Shown piece by piece: positions 25,118-32,094 of a DNA stretch of 41,490 nt (the first letter of the stretch is position 1; each line of letters begins with the position of its first letter). A model generated the notes under the pieces. That model did no database searches. It had not been told where the DNA came from and saw nothing but the letters and a program-made list of their open reading frames with translations. This DNA is from Mucispirillum schaedleri (GTDB taxonomy: Bacteria > Chrysiogenota > Deferribacteres > Deferribacterales > Mucispirillaceae), in NCBI GenBank assembly GCA_949287985.1, contig CASEIN010000046.1:1-41490 (forward strand). The letters are read 5' to 3'. The position numbers and the translations under genes are program-made.

Positions 25118-27016
25118 TTATTTTTCTTTATTATTAAGAAATTCTTCTTGATATTTTTCCATGATTTCAATAGATACATTAAATTCAACTATTAAAACTT
25201 TAAGCAGCCCAATCATTACAGCAAAAAGTTCTCTGTGTTTTAAAAAGAGCATTGTATCTCTTTCCACACCATTATCTTTACTAAATTTTATATAATTTAT
25301 ATCCTGTAGAATTTTAATATAAATTGATTGAACATAATGCATGACAATATAATAAAAATCTTTTCCTACAAATTTTAATGGTATTTTTACCACTTCATCA
25401 AGATTTTTCTTATAAACTTCCACATCTTCCCCTTGTGGTTCACAGTCTGTTCGTCTCATTATCTCTTCAATAATTGCACATTTATTTAACCCGTCCTGAC
25501 ATACTTCTATTATTTCGTTACAAAACTTATTGGCATGATGAAGTTTTTTTAAAGTTTCTTTAATATTTTTTTCTTTCTCTTTTTGTTTAGGGTATTTTAA
25601 AGCTCTTTTAATAGTATTGGTTGTATCAATATTAGTTGTTATATATTTATCTATAGCTTCTTGAAATGTCATAATTTGGGTTCCATGGATTTTTGCTCCA
25701 CCTTCTGTAGCATTAATAACAGTGCCTTTAAATGATGCTACATCTCTTTCGTAATGGAGTAAGAACTGTTTATACCATACATTTGTTTTTACTTTTTCTT
25801 GATAGTTACCTTCAAGTTCTATCATACCAGAAAGAATTGCTTTCTGTTGTGTCCCGTAATGGAAACCTTCTGCGTGTGTTTGTAAATCATCTGTTACGGC
25901 TAAATCCTGCCCGATAAGTATGATTGGATCACACCCTAAGTATTCTAACACCTTAAATGCCATATTACCTGCAGATGGTCCAATATCTAATATACCACGT
26001 TTAATATTAAGCCAGTCAAAAGTAGCAAAATTACGGTAAACAATTATTTTATCCCCCGGAAAGTTTGCATAAGTTTCAGGAACAACAACAGGGCAGGCTG
26101 CTAAATATGAATCTTTAACATCTTCTGGTGTTAGCCCTTCAAACAAATAAGATGTTTGAATAACACGCTCTAAACTTGTAACCATATGAGCTGGTGGTAA
26201 GTTATTATTTTTTAAAATCTTAACACTACCATCTGCTGCACATATTACAGCTTTCTCTCTAATATCTTTTAATAAGTGCATATTTTTATTTAATGAAGGA
26301 CCTGAAGCCACAACTATACCAGGTTTTCCTTTAAATATATTTTCAAGCTCCAATATTCCCGGATTATCAATAATTGTAGGAATATTTCTTAATGTGTATT
26401 TTATACCTAGAAGGCTGTCCTGTGGGTCATTACCATATAAAAGTAGAACCTGCTGTATACCTTCTTTTAATAACTGTAATGCAGATGAATAATATTCTCT
26501 GTTACCATAATAACAAATTGGCTGTTCTAATATATTAATAGCCTTAAGATAGTGAATATTTACGCTCATATTTAAAAAATTAAAAATATAAGGATAAGAT
26601 TCCCTTATATTTGGACCACCAACAAAATGAACATTAGGGCTGCTTAATAAATCTGTATATTTTACTGCACTAAAAGCGGTTTTTAAAAGTTCCACATCAC
26701 CTTCTATAATCATAACCCTTGCATGTGGAAATTTATTAATGTATTCATATACTTCATAACCAAGCCCAAAACCTAGAAATACAGCCACATCACCAAGTCT
26801 GATTTTTCTATTTTTTATATCTAATTCTGCAACTCTAAATGGGTCAATATTATTATAAAAATTTTTATTAAATTTAAGGTCTACCATTGAAGGAAGTTTA
26901 TCTTTTCTTTGAGATGGTGCAATAACATATCTTCCTGTTAGTTTTGCACTATTTACAAGTTCTGCAAGCTGAGGATTTCTTTTAGCAAGCATCTCAATAT
27001 TACTTTTATAAGGCAT
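25118..27016 (-). CDS. Motility accessory factor (Maf), flagellin glycosyltransferase family
   Basis: Maf/DUF115 protein of 632 residues, the family proposed or shown in several bacteria to move nonulosonic acids onto flagellin in the cytoplasm. The central MptE-like domain is seen in IFKGKPGIVVASGPSLNKN near residues 230-248, AVICAADGSVKIL near 258, the DIGPSAGNMAF block near 346 and LIGQDLAVTDDLQTHAEGF near 368. An upstream GTG at 27028 is possible, but GGAG six bases before the ATG at 27016 decides the start, leaving one base after the pseI stop. Its place at the end of the pse operon predicts a pseudaminic-acid-type donor. Confidence 0.9.
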   Translation of the reverse strand: MPYKSNIEMLAKRNPQLAELVNSAKLTGRYVIAPSQRKDKLPSMVDLKFNKNFYNNIDPFRVAELDIKNRKIRLGDVAVFLGFGLGYEVYEYINKFPHARVMIIEGDVELLKTAFSAVKYTDLLSSPNVHFVGGPNIRESYPYIFNFLNMSVNIHYLKAINILEQPICYYGNREYYSSALQLLKEGIQQVLLLYGNDPQDSLLGIKYTLRNIPTIIDNPGILELENIFKGKPGIVVASGPSLNKNMHLLKDIREKAVICAADGSVKILKNNNLPPAHMVTSLERVIQTSYLFEGLTPEDVKDSYLAACPVVVPETYANFPGDKIIVYRNFATFDWLNIKRGILDIGPSAGNMAFKVLEYLGCDPIILIGQDLAVTDDLQTHAEGFHYGTQQKAILSGMIELEGNYQEKVKTNVWYKQFLLHYERDVASFKGTVINATEGGAKIHGTQIMTFQEAIDKYITTNIDTTNTIKRALKYPKQKEKEKNIKETLKKLHHANKFCNEIIEVCQDGLNKCAIIEEIMRRTDCEPQGEDVEVYKKNLDEVVKIPLKFVGKDFYYIVMHYVQSIYIKILQDINYIKFSKDNGVERDTMLFLKHRELFAVMIGLLKVLIVEFNVSIEIMEKYQEEFLNNKEK

Positions 27017-27017
27017 T

Positions 27018-28064
27018 TTATTCTCCACTTTCTATTAAATTATCACTTATTGGTGTATATTTTTTTATTTTATTTTTTGCTTTTTTGCCAATAATGTTTT
27101 TTATATATTTAGGGCTTATTCCAAGGTGTGGTCTATAAGAACCTATATTACTATAAGAAAAAATTTCATCTTTTTCAATATCTTTTACAGCATATAAACT
27201 TCGCATAAAACTTCTTCCCTTAATTGAAGCTTCACTTACTTCATAATCTGCCTTACCTATGGCACTTTCTGCTGCTCTTATATCATCTACAAATTTTTTA
27301 AACTGACTTTCATCTAAAGAAAATGCACTATCTGGTGAATTTATTGATTTATCTAAAATAAAATGTTTTTCCACCATACAGGCACCTAATGCAACAGATG
27401 TTATTGCAACAGCATTATTTAATGTGTGGTCTGAAAGCCCTGTTAAACAGTTAAAATCTTTAGCCATAACCTGTATCATTTTTAAGTTTGCTTCATTTAC
27501 AGGAGCTGGGTAACTGGAAGTGCATTTAAGTAATATTATATCATTATTTTTAGCATTTCTGCAGGCTGCAACAGCATCTTCAATTTCATGTTTATAGGCA
27601 ACTCCTGTAGATAATATTACAGGTTTTCCCTTTGATGCTGCATATTCTATTAAAGGAATATCATTAATCTCAAAAGATGCAATTTTATAAGCAGGCATAT
27701 TTAATGTTTCTAAAAAATCAACAGCTGTCTTATCAAAAGGGGAAGAAAAACATATAATACCATTATCGCAGGCAACCTGCTGCAATTTTTCATGCCAATG
27801 CCATGGAGTGTGAGCTTTGTCATATAATTCATAATAAGATATATTATCCCACAGTGTGCCACCCTTTATTTTAAAATCATCACTGTCACTATTTAAAGTT
27901 ATGGTATCTGCTCTATAAGTTTGTAATTTTACAGCATCTGCTCCAGCTTTAGCTGCTGATTCTATAGTTTTGCAGGCTAAATCTAAATCACCATTATGAT
28001 TAGCAGAAAGCTCTGCTACAATAAAAGTTTTTCCAATGCCAAGTTCAAAATCTGCTATTTTCAT
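27018..28064 (-). CDS. pseI: Pseudaminic acid synthase PseI
   Basis: NeuB-family synthase (348 residues) that condenses a 2,4-diacylamino-2,4,6-trideoxy hexose with phosphoenolpyruvate to give the nonulosonic acid. The TIM barrel starts FIVAELSANHNGDL; further blocks are DAVKLQTYRADTITL, CFSSPFDKTAVDFLE, PAYKIASFEIND, LLKCTSSYPAP and GLSDHT. A C-terminal SAF domain (about 290-348) with RRSLYAVKDIEKDE-like sequence (here MRSLYAVKDIEKDE) follows. The WHWHEKL segment is typical of PseI rather than sialic or legionaminic acid synthases. ATGA overlap with the upstream fusion gene. Confidence 0.93.
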   Translation of the reverse strand: MKIADFELGIGKTFIVAELSANHNGDLDLACKTIESAAKAGADAVKLQTYRADTITLNSDSDDFKIKGGTLWDNISYYELYDKAHTPWHWHEKLQQVACDNGIICFSSPFDKTAVDFLETLNMPAYKIASFEINDIPLIEYAASKGKPVILSTGVAYKHEIEDAVAACRNAKNNDIILLKCTSSYPAPVNEANLKMIQVMAKDFNCLTGLSDHTLNNAVAITSVALGACMVEKHFILDKSINSPDSAFSLDESQFKKFVDDIRAAESAIGKADYEVSEASIKGRSFMRSLYAVKDIEKDEIFSYSNIGSYRPHLGISPKYIKNIIGKKAKNKIKKYTPISDNLIESGE

Positions 28065-29140
28065 ATTAATCCTAATTTATATATTATTAAATTATTTTTT
28101 TTATTTATTTTTTGAAATCCTGCTTTTAATATACAGTGTTTTGAGATACTATTTTTTTTTAACACTTCCATATAAACTTCGTTTATTAAAAGTATATTAG
28201 AAGCATAGTATTTTGCTGTCTCTATTAATATATTACCTATGCCTTTAGCAGCAATATATGGGTTTTTATAATAACCTATATATGCACTTTTTTTATGTAT
28301 ATGAGTAAAACTTATGACACCAATATTAAGCTTTTCAAATTGCACTACAAAATATAATTTTGATAAATCTTCTTTTAGTGAACAAATAAATTTATAATGT
28401 TCATCAATATCTATAATTTCAATATTTTTTGAGTTTAAACGTACATCTATATGATTACGCCATAGTAAAATTTCATTTATCAAACCAATATTGCAATTTG
28501 TAAAATTTTTTAATCTTACATTATCATATTTGCAGTTTGTCAGCACTAAATCAATATCATCAAGATAATTATTTCCCCCCCCCATTATTAAATTCTTAAC
28601 TAGTGTATTATATCCATTTTCTATAAGAAGACTCATAAACTTTTCTTTATCTTTTAAATAATGCAGGCTTCCATTTCCATGCTGTTTTTTACTTTTTATG
28701 CTGCCTGTTAGTATATCTTCAATATTATCATTAAAAAGCATAACTATCTCATTTATTAGCCTGTCATAACTTGTTTTCAATGTATCTGTTTCCACGTTAT
28801 CTTGAACTTCTTTTTGAACGATTATATCACCAGTATCAAGCCCTCCATCTATATAATGAATTGTTACACCTTTGGGAGTATTTTCAAGATAGCTCCATAA
28901 ATTAGGATCAGCTCCCCTGTTATATGGAAGCAGGGAAATATGAAGGTTTATTATTTTATTTATAAATTTATCAATAATATCTTTTTTGATAATATGGCGG
29001 TAACTAAAACTTATTATAAAATCATAATTTTGCACCATATCAAGTGATATTTTATCACAAATTATTTGAATATTATGACCTGCACTAATTAATTTATCAG
29101 CAAGTAAATTACTTTTTTCTCCCAGTAGCAATATATTCAT
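28061..29140 (-). CDS. Formyltransferase-PseH (GNAT) fusion with poly-G tract at the domain junction
   Basis: A 359-residue two-domain protein. Residues 1 to about 165 are a methionyl-tRNA/sugar N-formyltransferase fold with the catalytic triad Asn65, His67 and Asp102 (NLHISLLPYNRG and GGLDTGDI). Residues about 205-355 match PseH, the acetyltransferase for UDP-4-amino-4,6-dideoxy-AltNAc: VRLKNFTNCN, LLWRNHIDVR, DEHYKFI, an acetyl-CoA loop AAKGIG at 297-302. Nine consecutive G (28575-28583 on the complementary strand) encode MGGG at 186-189 between the domains. The frame is intact here; G8 or G10 would stop the protein at about 197 or 190 residues. ATGA overlaps both neighbours. Confidence 0.88.
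   Translation of the reverse strand: MNILLLGEKSNLLADKLISAGHNIQIICDKISLDMVQNYDFIISFSYRHIIKKDIIDKFINKIINLHISLLPYNRGADPNLWSYLENTPKGVTIHYIDGGLDTGDIIVQKEVQDNVETDTLKTSYDRLINEIVMLFNDNIEDILTGSIKSKKQHGNGSLHYLKDKEKFMSLLIENGYNTLVKNLIMGGGNNYLDDIDLVLTNCKYDNVRLKNFTNCNIGLINEILLWRNHIDVRLNSKNIEIIDIDEHYKFICSLKEDLSKLYFVVQFEKLNIGVISFTHIHKKSAYIGYYKNPYIAAKGIGNILIETAKYYASNILLINEVYMEVLKKNSISKHCILKAGFQKINKKNNLIIYKLGLI
28575..28583 (-). repeat. Homopolymeric G9 tract, candidate phase-variation site
   Basis: Nine C on the given strand, G on the coding strand, inside the formyltransferase-PseH fusion gene. It is the only G/C homopolymer of this size seen in a roughly 30% GC window. A one-base change shifts the frame and creates a stop codon within 13 codons either way. 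Confidence 0.85.
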
Positions 29141-29952
29141 TTTGCTCTCTCTAATATTCTATATGCATTACTCATTCCATTAAGTTTTAAAAGTTTTAAA
29201 GCCTCATCTATTTCTTCTTTTTCACTTTTAAATACATATTTTTGATATACACTTTTATTTAACTCTTTTAACCAGCTATTATTATTAAATAATTGAATTA
29301 TATCTTTATATGTAAAATCATCACCCAGCATAAAATATACAAGGTTTATTAATGCATAATCTTCATTAGTATCAACTGTTATTCTAATATCTGAATAGTT
29401 ATTGCCACCATCTTCTACTACATCTATTTTAGAAAAATTATCACTTTTTCTTACATGCCATGTAACATGCTCTCTAACTCTTATATCTTTTTCTTCCCTG
29501 TCTGTTTTTTTAAGTGCATCAAGTGTTACAACTTCTGTATCAAGCCCGTGAGGAAATGTGCGTTTTTCCACATTTGATACGTAATCAGCCTTTGAATTAA
29601 TATGTTCATCTATACATTTTTTTATAACATTATAATCAATACATGGGCAGTCTGCTGTAATTCTCACAATTCGTTCCACATTATATTTTTCTGCTGCACC
29701 AATATATCTTAAAAGCACATCATCAAGACTGCCTCTATATACTTTTGCTCCGTATTTTAAGGCTTCTTCAGCTGTTAAATCATCTTCTGCTAAATCACTT
29801 GTTGCAAGAATTACATTATCACACGCTTTTTGTGAACGCATAATAACACGCCCAAGCATAGAAATATTGCTGTCAGCAGGAATAGGCATAACCACTTTAT
29901 CTTTTAATCTGGTAGAAGAACATCTTGCCTGAATAATTATACCAGTATTCAT
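29137..29952 (-). CDS. spsF: SpsF-type cytidylyltransferase (CMP-nonulosonate activation role)
   Basis: Nucleotidyltransferase of 271 residues with the SpsF signature IIIQARCSSTRLKDKVV at residues 4-20, an ATSDLAEDD block near 51 and RITADCPCID near 96-105. SpsF-type enzymes accompany NeuB/PseI-like synthases (as in the Bacillus sps operon) and replace the usual PseF/NeuA, presumably making the CMP-activated sugar. It differs from Helicobacter/Campylobacter PseF, whose N-terminus reads IPARGGSKRIP. A C-terminal helical extension of about 40 residues is present. ATGA overlap with the fusion gene. Confidence 0.82.
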   Translation of the reverse strand: MNTGIIIQARCSSTRLKDKVVMPIPADSNISMLGRVIMRSQKACDNVILATSDLAEDDLTAEEALKYGAKVYRGSLDDVLLRYIGAAEKYNVERIVRITADCPCIDYNVIKKCIDEHINSKADYVSNVEKRTFPHGLDTEVVTLDALKKTDREEKDIRVREHVTWHVRKSDNFSKIDVVEDGGNNYSDIRITVDTNEDYALINLVYFMLGDDFTYKDIIQLFNNNSWLKELNKSVYQKYVFKSEKEEIDEALKLLKLNGMSNAYRILERAK

Positions 29953-29954
29953 AA

Positions 29955-31088
29955 CTAACTCGCCAATGCTTTTTTTATATTATCTATTAAAAATTCTAAC
30001 TGACTGTCAGTTAAAGCAGGATACATTGGTAAAGACAACTCTCTTTCATAAAACTCATATGCTTTTGGTGTATCTTTATAACTATAACCTAATTCTTCAT
30101 AATATGGGTGGCATGTAACTGGCATATAATGTATTTGGGTAAAAATATTATTTTCTTTTAAAGAATAATAAACATTATCTCTTATAGCTTTACTTTCAAA
30201 AAGAACAGGAAATAAATGCTGAGAATTTATTCTATCATCATATATCTTCTGCGTTTTAATATTCATATCTTTAAAAGCATTATTATAAATATCTGCAATT
30301 TCACGTCTTCTTTTAATAAAACCATCTAATTTTTTTAACTGGGATATACCTAAAGCAGCCTGTAAATCTGTCATTCTATAATTATACCCTAACATTTGCA
30401 TTTCATGATATGTTGGACTTGTTGGTTTATTTTTAAAATTTTCACGAACAATACCATGGCTTCTTAAAGCGATACATTTTTTATAAAGAGTTTCATCCTG
30501 CAGTAATATTGCTCCACCTTCTGCTGTTGTAATATGCTTAACTGGGTGAAAGCTAAAAACAGCAGCATTAGAATACTTTAAACTTCCTGTTTTACTTCCT
30601 TTATAACTGCTTCCTATACTGTGGCAGGCATCTTCTACCACATATAAATTATGATTATCTGCAATATTTTTTATATCCTGCATATTGCATGTAAGCCCTG
30701 CATAATGAACAGGGGCTATAATTTTTGTATTATTATTGATTAGTTTTTCGATATTTTTTTCATCTATTAAAAAATCATCTAAACTAATATCTGCAAATTT
30801 TGGTTTTCCACCAAGATATAAGCATGCATTACTTGTAGCTGCAAATGTATTTGGAGTTGTAATGATTTCATTATCTTTTTCAAGACCTAAGGCATGATAT
30901 ATAATATGAAGTGCAGCAGTGCCAGATGATACACAAACTGCATATCTTGCACCAGTATATTCTGATAATAATTTTTCAAATAAAGGGACATACTGCCCTT
31001 GAGTAATGCTTTCTGATTTTAAAGCATCAATTACAAGTTTTATATCTTCATCGTCAATAAACTGCCTGCCATACGATATTTTATCCAT
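29955..31088 (-). CDS. pseC: PLP-dependent aminotransferase PseC
   Basis: UDP-4-amino-4,6-dideoxy-N-acetyl-beta-L-altrosamine transaminase (377 residues) of the DegT/DnrJ/EryC1 family. The start ISYGRQFIDDEDI, the cofactor segment CVSSGTAALH near 52-61, VEDACHSIGSSYKG near 151 and the Schiff-base Lys in SFHPVKHITTAEGG near 182-195 match PseC. It catalyses the second step of pseudaminic acid synthesis and is separated from pseB by one base. Confidence 0.94.
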   Translation of the reverse strand: MDKISYGRQFIDDEDIKLVIDALKSESITQGQYVPLFEKLLSEYTGARYAVCVSSGTAALHIIYHALGLEKDNEIITTPNTFAATSNACLYLGGKPKFADISLDDFLIDEKNIEKLINNNTKIIAPVHYAGLTCNMQDIKNIADNHNLYVVEDACHSIGSSYKGSKTGSLKYSNAAVFSFHPVKHITTAEGGAILLQDETLYKKCIALRSHGIVRENFKNKPTSPTYHEMQMLGYNYRMTDLQAALGISQLKKLDGFIKRRREIADIYNNAFKDMNIKTQKIYDDRINSQHLFPVLFESKAIRDNVYYSLKENNIFTQIHYMPVTCHPYYEELGYSYKDTPKAYEFYERELSLPMYPALTDSQLEFLIDNIKKALAS

Positions 31089-31089
31089 A

Positions 31090-32094
31090 TTATTTTGCCA
31101 TTTCTTTTAATTTTTTTTCTACTTCTGTTGCAATATTTCTTAAAAAATCAGCGTCCATTTTTTCTGGATTATTATCACTTGAATAGCAAAAATTCTCTGG
31201 CAGTTTTGTTCCTTTTTTACAAATTTTACTTTCATTAGTCCAGTTAACAAATTCTGGCATAATCCTGTAATGGTCTTCATATTCTATTGTATGGCGTGCA
31301 TCATCTGTAGGTATCATAACTTCATGCATTTTTTCACCAGGTCTAATACCTATATCTTCTATCTGACACTCTGGAGCAATAATTTTAGCAAAATCTTCCA
31401 TAGAAATAGATGGTATTTTTGGAACAAATATCTCACCGCCTTCCATCTCTTCAAATGCTTTTATAACAAGCTCAATAGCTTTTTCAATAGTTATCCAAAA
31501 CCTGGTCATCTGCCTGTTTGTAATAGTTATTTTACCTGTTGCTTTCTGCTCTAAAAATAAAGGAAGCACAGAACCACGGCTGCCTAAAACATTACCATAG
31601 CGAACTACGCTAAATCTTGTAACTCTGCCACCTGCATAAGAATTACCTGCTACAAAAAGTTTATCACTGGCTAGTTTTGTAGCTCCATATAAATTTATAG
31701 GGTTTGCAGCCTTATCTGTTGATAATGCCACCACTTTTTTAACACCTGCATCTATTGCTGCTTCAATTACATTTTCAGCACCTAAAATATTTGTTTTAAT
31801 AGCTTCAAAAGGGTTATACTCTGCTGCCACCACTTGTTTTGAGGCTGCTGCATGCACTATATAATCAACTCCGTAAAAAGCTCTGTTTAAACGTTCTCTA
31901 TCTCTAACATCACCTATAAAAAACCTTAAATTTGGAATATCTTTAAAAGCACGAGCCATCTCATACTGCTTAAATTCATCTCTGGAAAAAATAATGATTT
32001 TATTAGCTTTATAATTTGAAGCCACATATTTTACAAACTGTTTTCCAAAAGTTCCAGTGCCACCAGTAATTAAAACATTTTTTCCATTAAACAT
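31090..32094 (-). CDS. pseB: UDP-GlcNAc 4,6-dehydratase (inverting) PseB
   Basis: SDR-family dehydratase/epimerase (334 residues) that starts the pathway from UDP-GlcNAc. The NAD loop is LITGGTGTFGKQF near residues 8-20, a Lys is seen in place of the usual Tyr region's STDKAANPINLYGATK block near 125-140, and the segment MTRFWITIEKA near 204 is characteristic of PseB/FlaA1. GGAG stands before the ATG and the gap to rel is only 14 bases, so the pse genes are probably read together with rel. Confidence 0.95.
   Translation of the reverse strand: MFNGKNVLITGGTGTFGKQFVKYVASNYKANKIIIFSRDEFKQYEMARAFKDIPNLRFFIGDVRDRERLNRAFYGVDYIVHAAASKQVVAAEYNPFEAIKTNILGAENVIEAAIDAGVKKVVALSTDKAANPINLYGATKLASDKLFVAGNSYAGGRVTRFSVVRYGNVLGSRGSVLPLFLEQKATGKITITNRQMTRFWITIEKAIELVIKAFEEMEGGEIFVPKIPSISMEDFAKIIAPECQIEDIGIRPGEKMHEVMIPTDDARHTIEYEDHYRIMPEFVNWTNESKICKKGTKLPENFCYSSDNNPEKMDADFLRNIATEVEKKLKEMAK

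Follow-up and report, generated by a model that had tools for sequence, protein, structure and literature searches.

In the biosynthesis of pseudaminic acid, the 4-amino group of UDP-4-amino-4,6-dideoxy-L-AltNAc is installed by PseC and becomes N7 of the finished sugar. Two enzymes act on this same group: PseJ transfers a formyl group from N10-formyl-tetrahydrofolate, and PseH transfers an acetyl group from acetyl-CoA. PseH is usually encoded by a separate gene and is usually an alternative to PseJ. The closest described switches are the poly-G contingency genes of the flagellin glycosylation locus of Campylobacter jejuni, namely the maf genes and Cj1295, and poly-G phase variation in such loci is already classical in Campylobacter (PMC3068675). 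The locus analysed here shares with C. jejuni an intragenic G tract of about nine residues, ON/OFF switching by frameshift, a pseudaminic acid and flagellar context, and many tracts per genome. However, it belongs to another phylum, its tract joins two enzymes, its OFF state leaves a predicted working enzyme, and variation at its tract is a prediction from the sequence. A search of the open-access literature (most subscription journals lie outside it) turned up no previous account of phase variation in Mucispirillum or of a PseJ/PseH switch.

The window, that is, the whole stretch of 41,490 bases that was analysed, comes from a metagenome-assembled genome of Mucispirillum (Deferribacterota; hereafter G000) of 2,435,794 bases in 79 contigs. 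On its minus strand, inspection of the sequence and its frames revealed a pseJ-pseH fusion gene of 359 codons (28061..29140), which is open with 9 G. The N-terminal N-formyltransferase domain (PseJ, residues 1-185; 28586..29140, minus strand) matches Formyl_trans_N. Its residues 3-185 align with the full-length PseJ of the 7-N-formyl pathway (PDB 6ci2, E = 1.4e-49), and this alignment showed the N-x-H and the downstream D of the formyltransferase family; the difference from that enzyme is the fusion to PseH via the tract. The C-terminal N-acetyltransferase domain (PseH, residues 211-346; 28103..28510, minus strand) scored 97.6 bits against TIGR03585, above the family cut-off of 93.1, and matched PDB 4xpk with an E-value of 4.6e-18. 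It thus resembles known PseH proteins (PDB 4xpk, 4ri1), but its presence here is conditional on the tract. From these similarities, both halves are predicted to act on UDP-4-amino-4,6-dideoxy-L-AltNAc, the PseJ half formylating it and the PseH half acetylating it. An AlphaFold2 model of the fusion (mean pLDDT 80) contained two folded domains and, between them, a linker of residues 187-197 (28550..28582, minus strand) with pLDDT below 50, which is where the tract is translated.

The tract itself consists of nine G on the coding strand (C9 on the plus strand) at 28575..28583, in codons 186-189 of the fusion gene. The first-pass annotation had placed it between a formyltransferase and a PseH-like domain, and the domain borders agree with this, since the PseJ match ends at residue 185 and the PseH match starts at residue 211. 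We recomputed the products for each tract length and obtained 197 amino acids with 8 G, 359 with 9, 190 with 10, 198 with 11 and 360 with 12, so that the frame states given by the same annotation (open with 9 G, 197 residues with 8 and 190 with 10) were reproduced. Its statement that the formyltransferase stays intact while the acetyltransferase is removed is likewise borne out, because the similarity to PseJ ends before the stops at 190 and 197. In all OFF products (8, 10 and 11 G) the PseJ region is complete and PseH alone is lost. The stand-alone PseJ proteins of four relatives (G002, G003, G004 and G007) have about 188-190 residues, with pseI directly next. The OFF products, being complete PseJ proteins of about this length, thus reproduce the natural stand-alone enzyme.

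We then compared the tract with chance expectation. No other G/C run in the window reaches six bases, and the absence of others of its length had already been remarked. With the composition of the window (G 14.3%, C 16.4%), a first-order Markov model predicted about 0.019 runs of nine or more per window. The assertion that such a run is very unlikely by chance therefore does not stand on the window alone, where the chance is not negligible (about 2%) and the tract is suggestive, short of conclusive, but it does stand on the whole genome. In G000, there were 29 G/C runs of at least nine, where about 1.1 would be expected: 24 had nine bases, four had ten and one had eleven. By contrast, there was only one run of seven (about 24 expected) and one run of eight (about 4.6 expected). 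This bimodal distribution of run lengths is unexplained by composition, and the genome-wide picture is decisive.

About 16 of the tracts in G000 lie inside coding sequences with G on the coding strand. The genes concerned encode glycosyltransferases of the GT2, GT8 and GtrII types and a sulfatase/LTA-synthase-like enzyme. Others encode two N6/N4 DNA methylases, an MBOAT acyltransferase, a DUF2172/DUF4910 protein and a methyltransferase, as well as a predicted outer-membrane protein and a lipoprotein (the last two have no Pfam match and were called from the sequence alone). At least five tract genes are frame-broken at present (L004, L016, L019, L022 and L061); in L061 the MBOAT domain is split by the tract and resumes in another frame. 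Three of the features by which contingency loci are recognised are found together: the tract is longer than expected by chance, the gain or loss of one G gives a different protein, and the targets across the genome are surface, glycan and methylase genes. The two methylase genes with G tracts, L016 (C52:49072) and L020 (C57:1217), are in different states, one broken and one open, and possibly give rise to phase-variable methylomes. The frame-broken L004 with its G tract is the DUF2172/DUF4910 gene, whose family we take to be related to Cj1295, the phase-variable flagellin modification gene of C. jejuni.

About ten other tracts of G000 are poly-C and lie in the spacers of TTGACA...TATAAT-like promoters upstream of lipoprotein and surface genes (L001, L008, L009, L010, L013 with two tracts, L015, L021 and L065). 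A strict version of this promoter motif was found in 9 of 10 Mucispirillum genomes and in G011, a family member with 54% GC, and in none of the 49 other genomes searched; the reversed control gave one match. Promoter-spacer phase variation is known, for example, from Neisseria porA and opc, and these poly-C tracts, which are of the same kind, probably form a transcriptional class of phase switches, a companion of the window's tract with a mechanism other than its own. Note that a 1.6-Mb genome of the same order (G037, 76% complete) contained 417 overlapping C9 matches, far more than its relatives, possibly an artefact.

Changes in tract length and position are visible elsewhere in the genus. 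In the sulfatase-like gene, the same site has ten G with an open frame in G000 and nine G with a frame broken at residue about 259 in the sister genome G005, with immediate flanks of equal length; in G001, G006 and G009 the tracts of this gene are at other sites. The outer-membrane protein gene has one tract site common to G000, G005 and G009 and another common to G006 and G001 (turnover loci of these two genes: L196-L204 and L176-L195). The one-G difference and the differing sites thus document length change and position turnover within Mucispirillum, at loci other than the window's tract. MutS1 is intact in G000, which rules out loss of mismatch repair as the cause of tract instability and implies that slippage may be slow.

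The neighbours of the fusion gene, all on the minus strand, are consistent with the biosynthetic context proposed by the first-pass annotation, as pseB, pseC, pseI and a Maf/PseD-like gene lie around it. The pseudaminic acid synthase gene pseI (27018..28064, TIGR03586) overlaps the stop of the fusion by 4 bases at its start, and its ATG is preceded by its own AGGA. The Maf/PseD-like gene (25118..27028), which likely functions in flagellin glycosylation, has the MptE-like domain PF01973 and scored 184 bits against NF050051, under the cut-off of 670. On the other side are a cytidylyltransferase gene in the pseF position (29137..29952; CTP_transf_3, PF02348, without a PseF equivalog match), pseC, encoding the aminotransferase (29955..31088, TIGR03588), and pseB, encoding the dehydratase (31090..32094, TIGR03589), the last two above their cut-offs. 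PseG (TIGR03590) was found neither in G000 nor in any of 15 Mucispirillaceae genomes. The textbook CMP-pseudaminic acid pathway, in which PseB, PseC, PseH or PseJ, PseG, PseI and PseF are all present, is therefore incomplete; the pathway departs from it and another hydrolase must be assumed. A UDP-sugar hydrolase of another kind may substitute in these PseG-less Mucispirillaceae, given pseB, pseC and pseI in the window.

The closest records to the window were Candidatus M. faecigallinarum (L074) and uncultured Mucispirillum MAGs, and a scan of genome contigs, from which the window's own genome was perhaps left out, returned no second strain of its species. In G009, the fusion is present without the tract and reads ESSNN at the junction. 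The replacement of the tract by mixed glycine codons in relatives, which had been raised as evidence against a switch, is not seen in this fused relative, and a conserved glycine linker is ruled out as the reading of the tract. The tract-free fusion of G009 (L032/L074) has Asn in the LDTG motif at residue 102, where the others have Asp. This Asp is expected to be catalytic in formyltransferases, so that the PseJ half of the G009 fusion may lack activity. In G005, a G9 lies about 28 codons earlier, inside pseJ, and breaks the frame there; the well-conserved remainder of pseJ runs on in a different frame, and pseH stands apart as its own gene. The two genes are also separate in G011, where the G9 is inside pseH. 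In the single-contig Mucispirillum genome G006, we read the translation upstream of pseH as a short vestige that is similar to the first part of pseJ and contains a G9. The four genomes with stand-alone PseJ (G002, G003, G004 and G007) lack pseH at the locus and have no tract there, and in G008 the locus is cut by a contig end. Since G9 occurs at different sites of the pair in these relatives, and nowhere where pseH is absent, the recurring target of the tracts is apparently the pseJ/pseH pair rather than a particular site, although the comparison was made post hoc. We estimate that a chance G9 in a 1.1-kb gene pair would be rare at the GC content of Mucispirillum and would occur with a probability of roughly 1% at that of G011.

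The locus is also a mosaic. The DNA identity between G000 and G005 (L066) is about 92% over the locus, and falls to 54-73% over the last part of pseJ together with pseH (28061-28710 of the window), and the alignments of G002, G003 and G007 to G000 stop at the tract and restart at the start of pseI. In these alignments, pseH behaves as an exchangeable module, open to gain and loss. We also surveyed 80 PseJ loci of GTDB genomes for a PseH domain within about 4 kb. Only three Mucispirillaceae loci and a Syntrophus MAG (L084) had a strong one; three further loci had weaker GNAT matches within this distance. In L084, the gene at 1712-2830 encodes a PseJ-PseH fusion (TIGR03585, 150.9 bits) with an in-frame G8 at codon 148, in the pseJ half, and is possibly an independent case of the switch in another phylum. 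In G019, of the same order as Mucispirillum, pseJ and pseH are separated by about 1 kb and have no run of seven or more, and G036 has a PseJ-like match and a nearby weak GNAT match without a tract. The idea that PseJ and PseH coexist only in tract-bearing genomes is ruled out by these two genomes, and G019 in particular indicates that coexistence alone implies no switch.

Building on the tract, the frames, the identity of the domains, the genome-wide tract set and the relatives, we consider it probable that the G9 is a contingency locus at which strand slippage adds PseH or takes it away and thereby shifts the balance between 7-N-formyl and 7-N-acetyl pseudaminic acid. Slipped-strand mispairing at replication would change the tract by one G. 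With 9 (or 12) G the PseJ-PseH fusion would be made, and with 8, 10 or 11 G translation would meet a stop codon only a few codons past the tract, leaving a complete stand-alone PseJ. If both domains are active, cells would shift between 7-N-formyl pseudaminic acid only and a mixture with, or a preference for, the 7-N-acetyl form, and the neighbouring Maf protein would probably attach the sugar to flagellin. We infer that the halves compete in this Mucispirillum as rival acyltransferases for one substrate, so that the switch probably alters the chemistry of the sugar instead of turning a gene off. The enzyme toggled would be PseJ in G005 and PseH in G011. The choice of acyl group is preferred over a simple ON/OFF switch or a polar effect because the arrangements in the window, G005 and G011 all alter the ratio of the same two enzymes. 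As first proposed in the initial annotation, phase variation is the best explanation of the tract, given the contingency tracts across the genome and the one-G difference between open and broken frames in the sister species G000 and G005 at another locus. Against it we count the intact MutS1, the tract-free fusion of G009, the absence of PseG and the post hoc nature of the comparison.

Other explanations were weighed against this reading. Phase variation could act by polarity, the OFF state leaving about 500 untranslated bases before pseI and lowering PseI, hence all pseudaminic acid and perhaps motility. The 4-base overlap between the fusion stop and the pseI start does suggest coupled translation, but a polar effect, while possible, is not required, since pseI has its own AGGA before the ATG; pseI also directly follows pseJ in relatives without pseH, and acyl choice also fits G005 and G011, whose tracts fall in the other enzyme or in a separate gene. 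We therefore regard polarity as unlikely to be the main effect. It is equally unlikely that the tract is fixed, having arisen as a side effect when the pseH module was joined or exchanged, with no useful rate of length change. The mosaic would accommodate this, with its divergent 3' pseJ and pseH segment inside similar flanks and the alignments that break at the tract and resume at pseI, and so would the roughly 2% chance of such a run in the window alone. However, 28 other tracts of similar length occur in the genome, in typical contingency genes and promoters, and those of G005, G006 and G011 lie away from the fusion point.

The G9 could also act at the RNA level: if RNA polymerase slipped or ribosomes shifted frame on it, the ratio of fusion to PseJ would be set within each cell with the DNA unchanged. 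Both products would be meaningful proteins, and there is a report of frameshifting during translation at G/C tracts in the maf genes of Campylobacter (PMC3068675). In Mucispirillum, however, frames at other loci are broken in the DNA, the one-G difference between G000 and G005 is also in the DNA, and poly-C tracts in promoter spacers cannot act through frameshifting, which makes an RNA-level ratio still less probable than either of the preceding explanations. Least probable of all is an error of assembly or consensus in the length of the tract. The assembly has 79 contigs and is probably based on short reads, and homopolymers are error-prone, but tracts recur in the single contig of G006 and in independent Mucispirillum assemblies, and an error would alter the length of a run rather than make one; in addition, the frame is open as assembled.

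With the acyl choice at the window's tract preferred, a broader proposal can be made, which in our judgement is evenly balanced between holding and failing: a switch choosing the acyl group of a nonulosonic acid would have come under phase variation on several occasions, at differing positions in the gene pair, in Mucispirillaceae and perhaps in Syntrophus, with other Mucispirillum fixed for one enzyme, in a genus with a large poly-G repertoire of two classes. Mucispirillum is a mucus-dwelling gut bacterium that is linked to inflammation in mice. If the proposal is true, about 29 phase-variable loci, including a flagellar sugar switch, would allow one clone to present many surfaces to its host and to phages. 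A toggle between formyl and acetyl groups, which would be readable by mass spectrometry, would offer a test of bet-hedging on the chemistry of a sugar as opposed to its presence, and the genus-wide claims are testable in cultured M. schaedleri.
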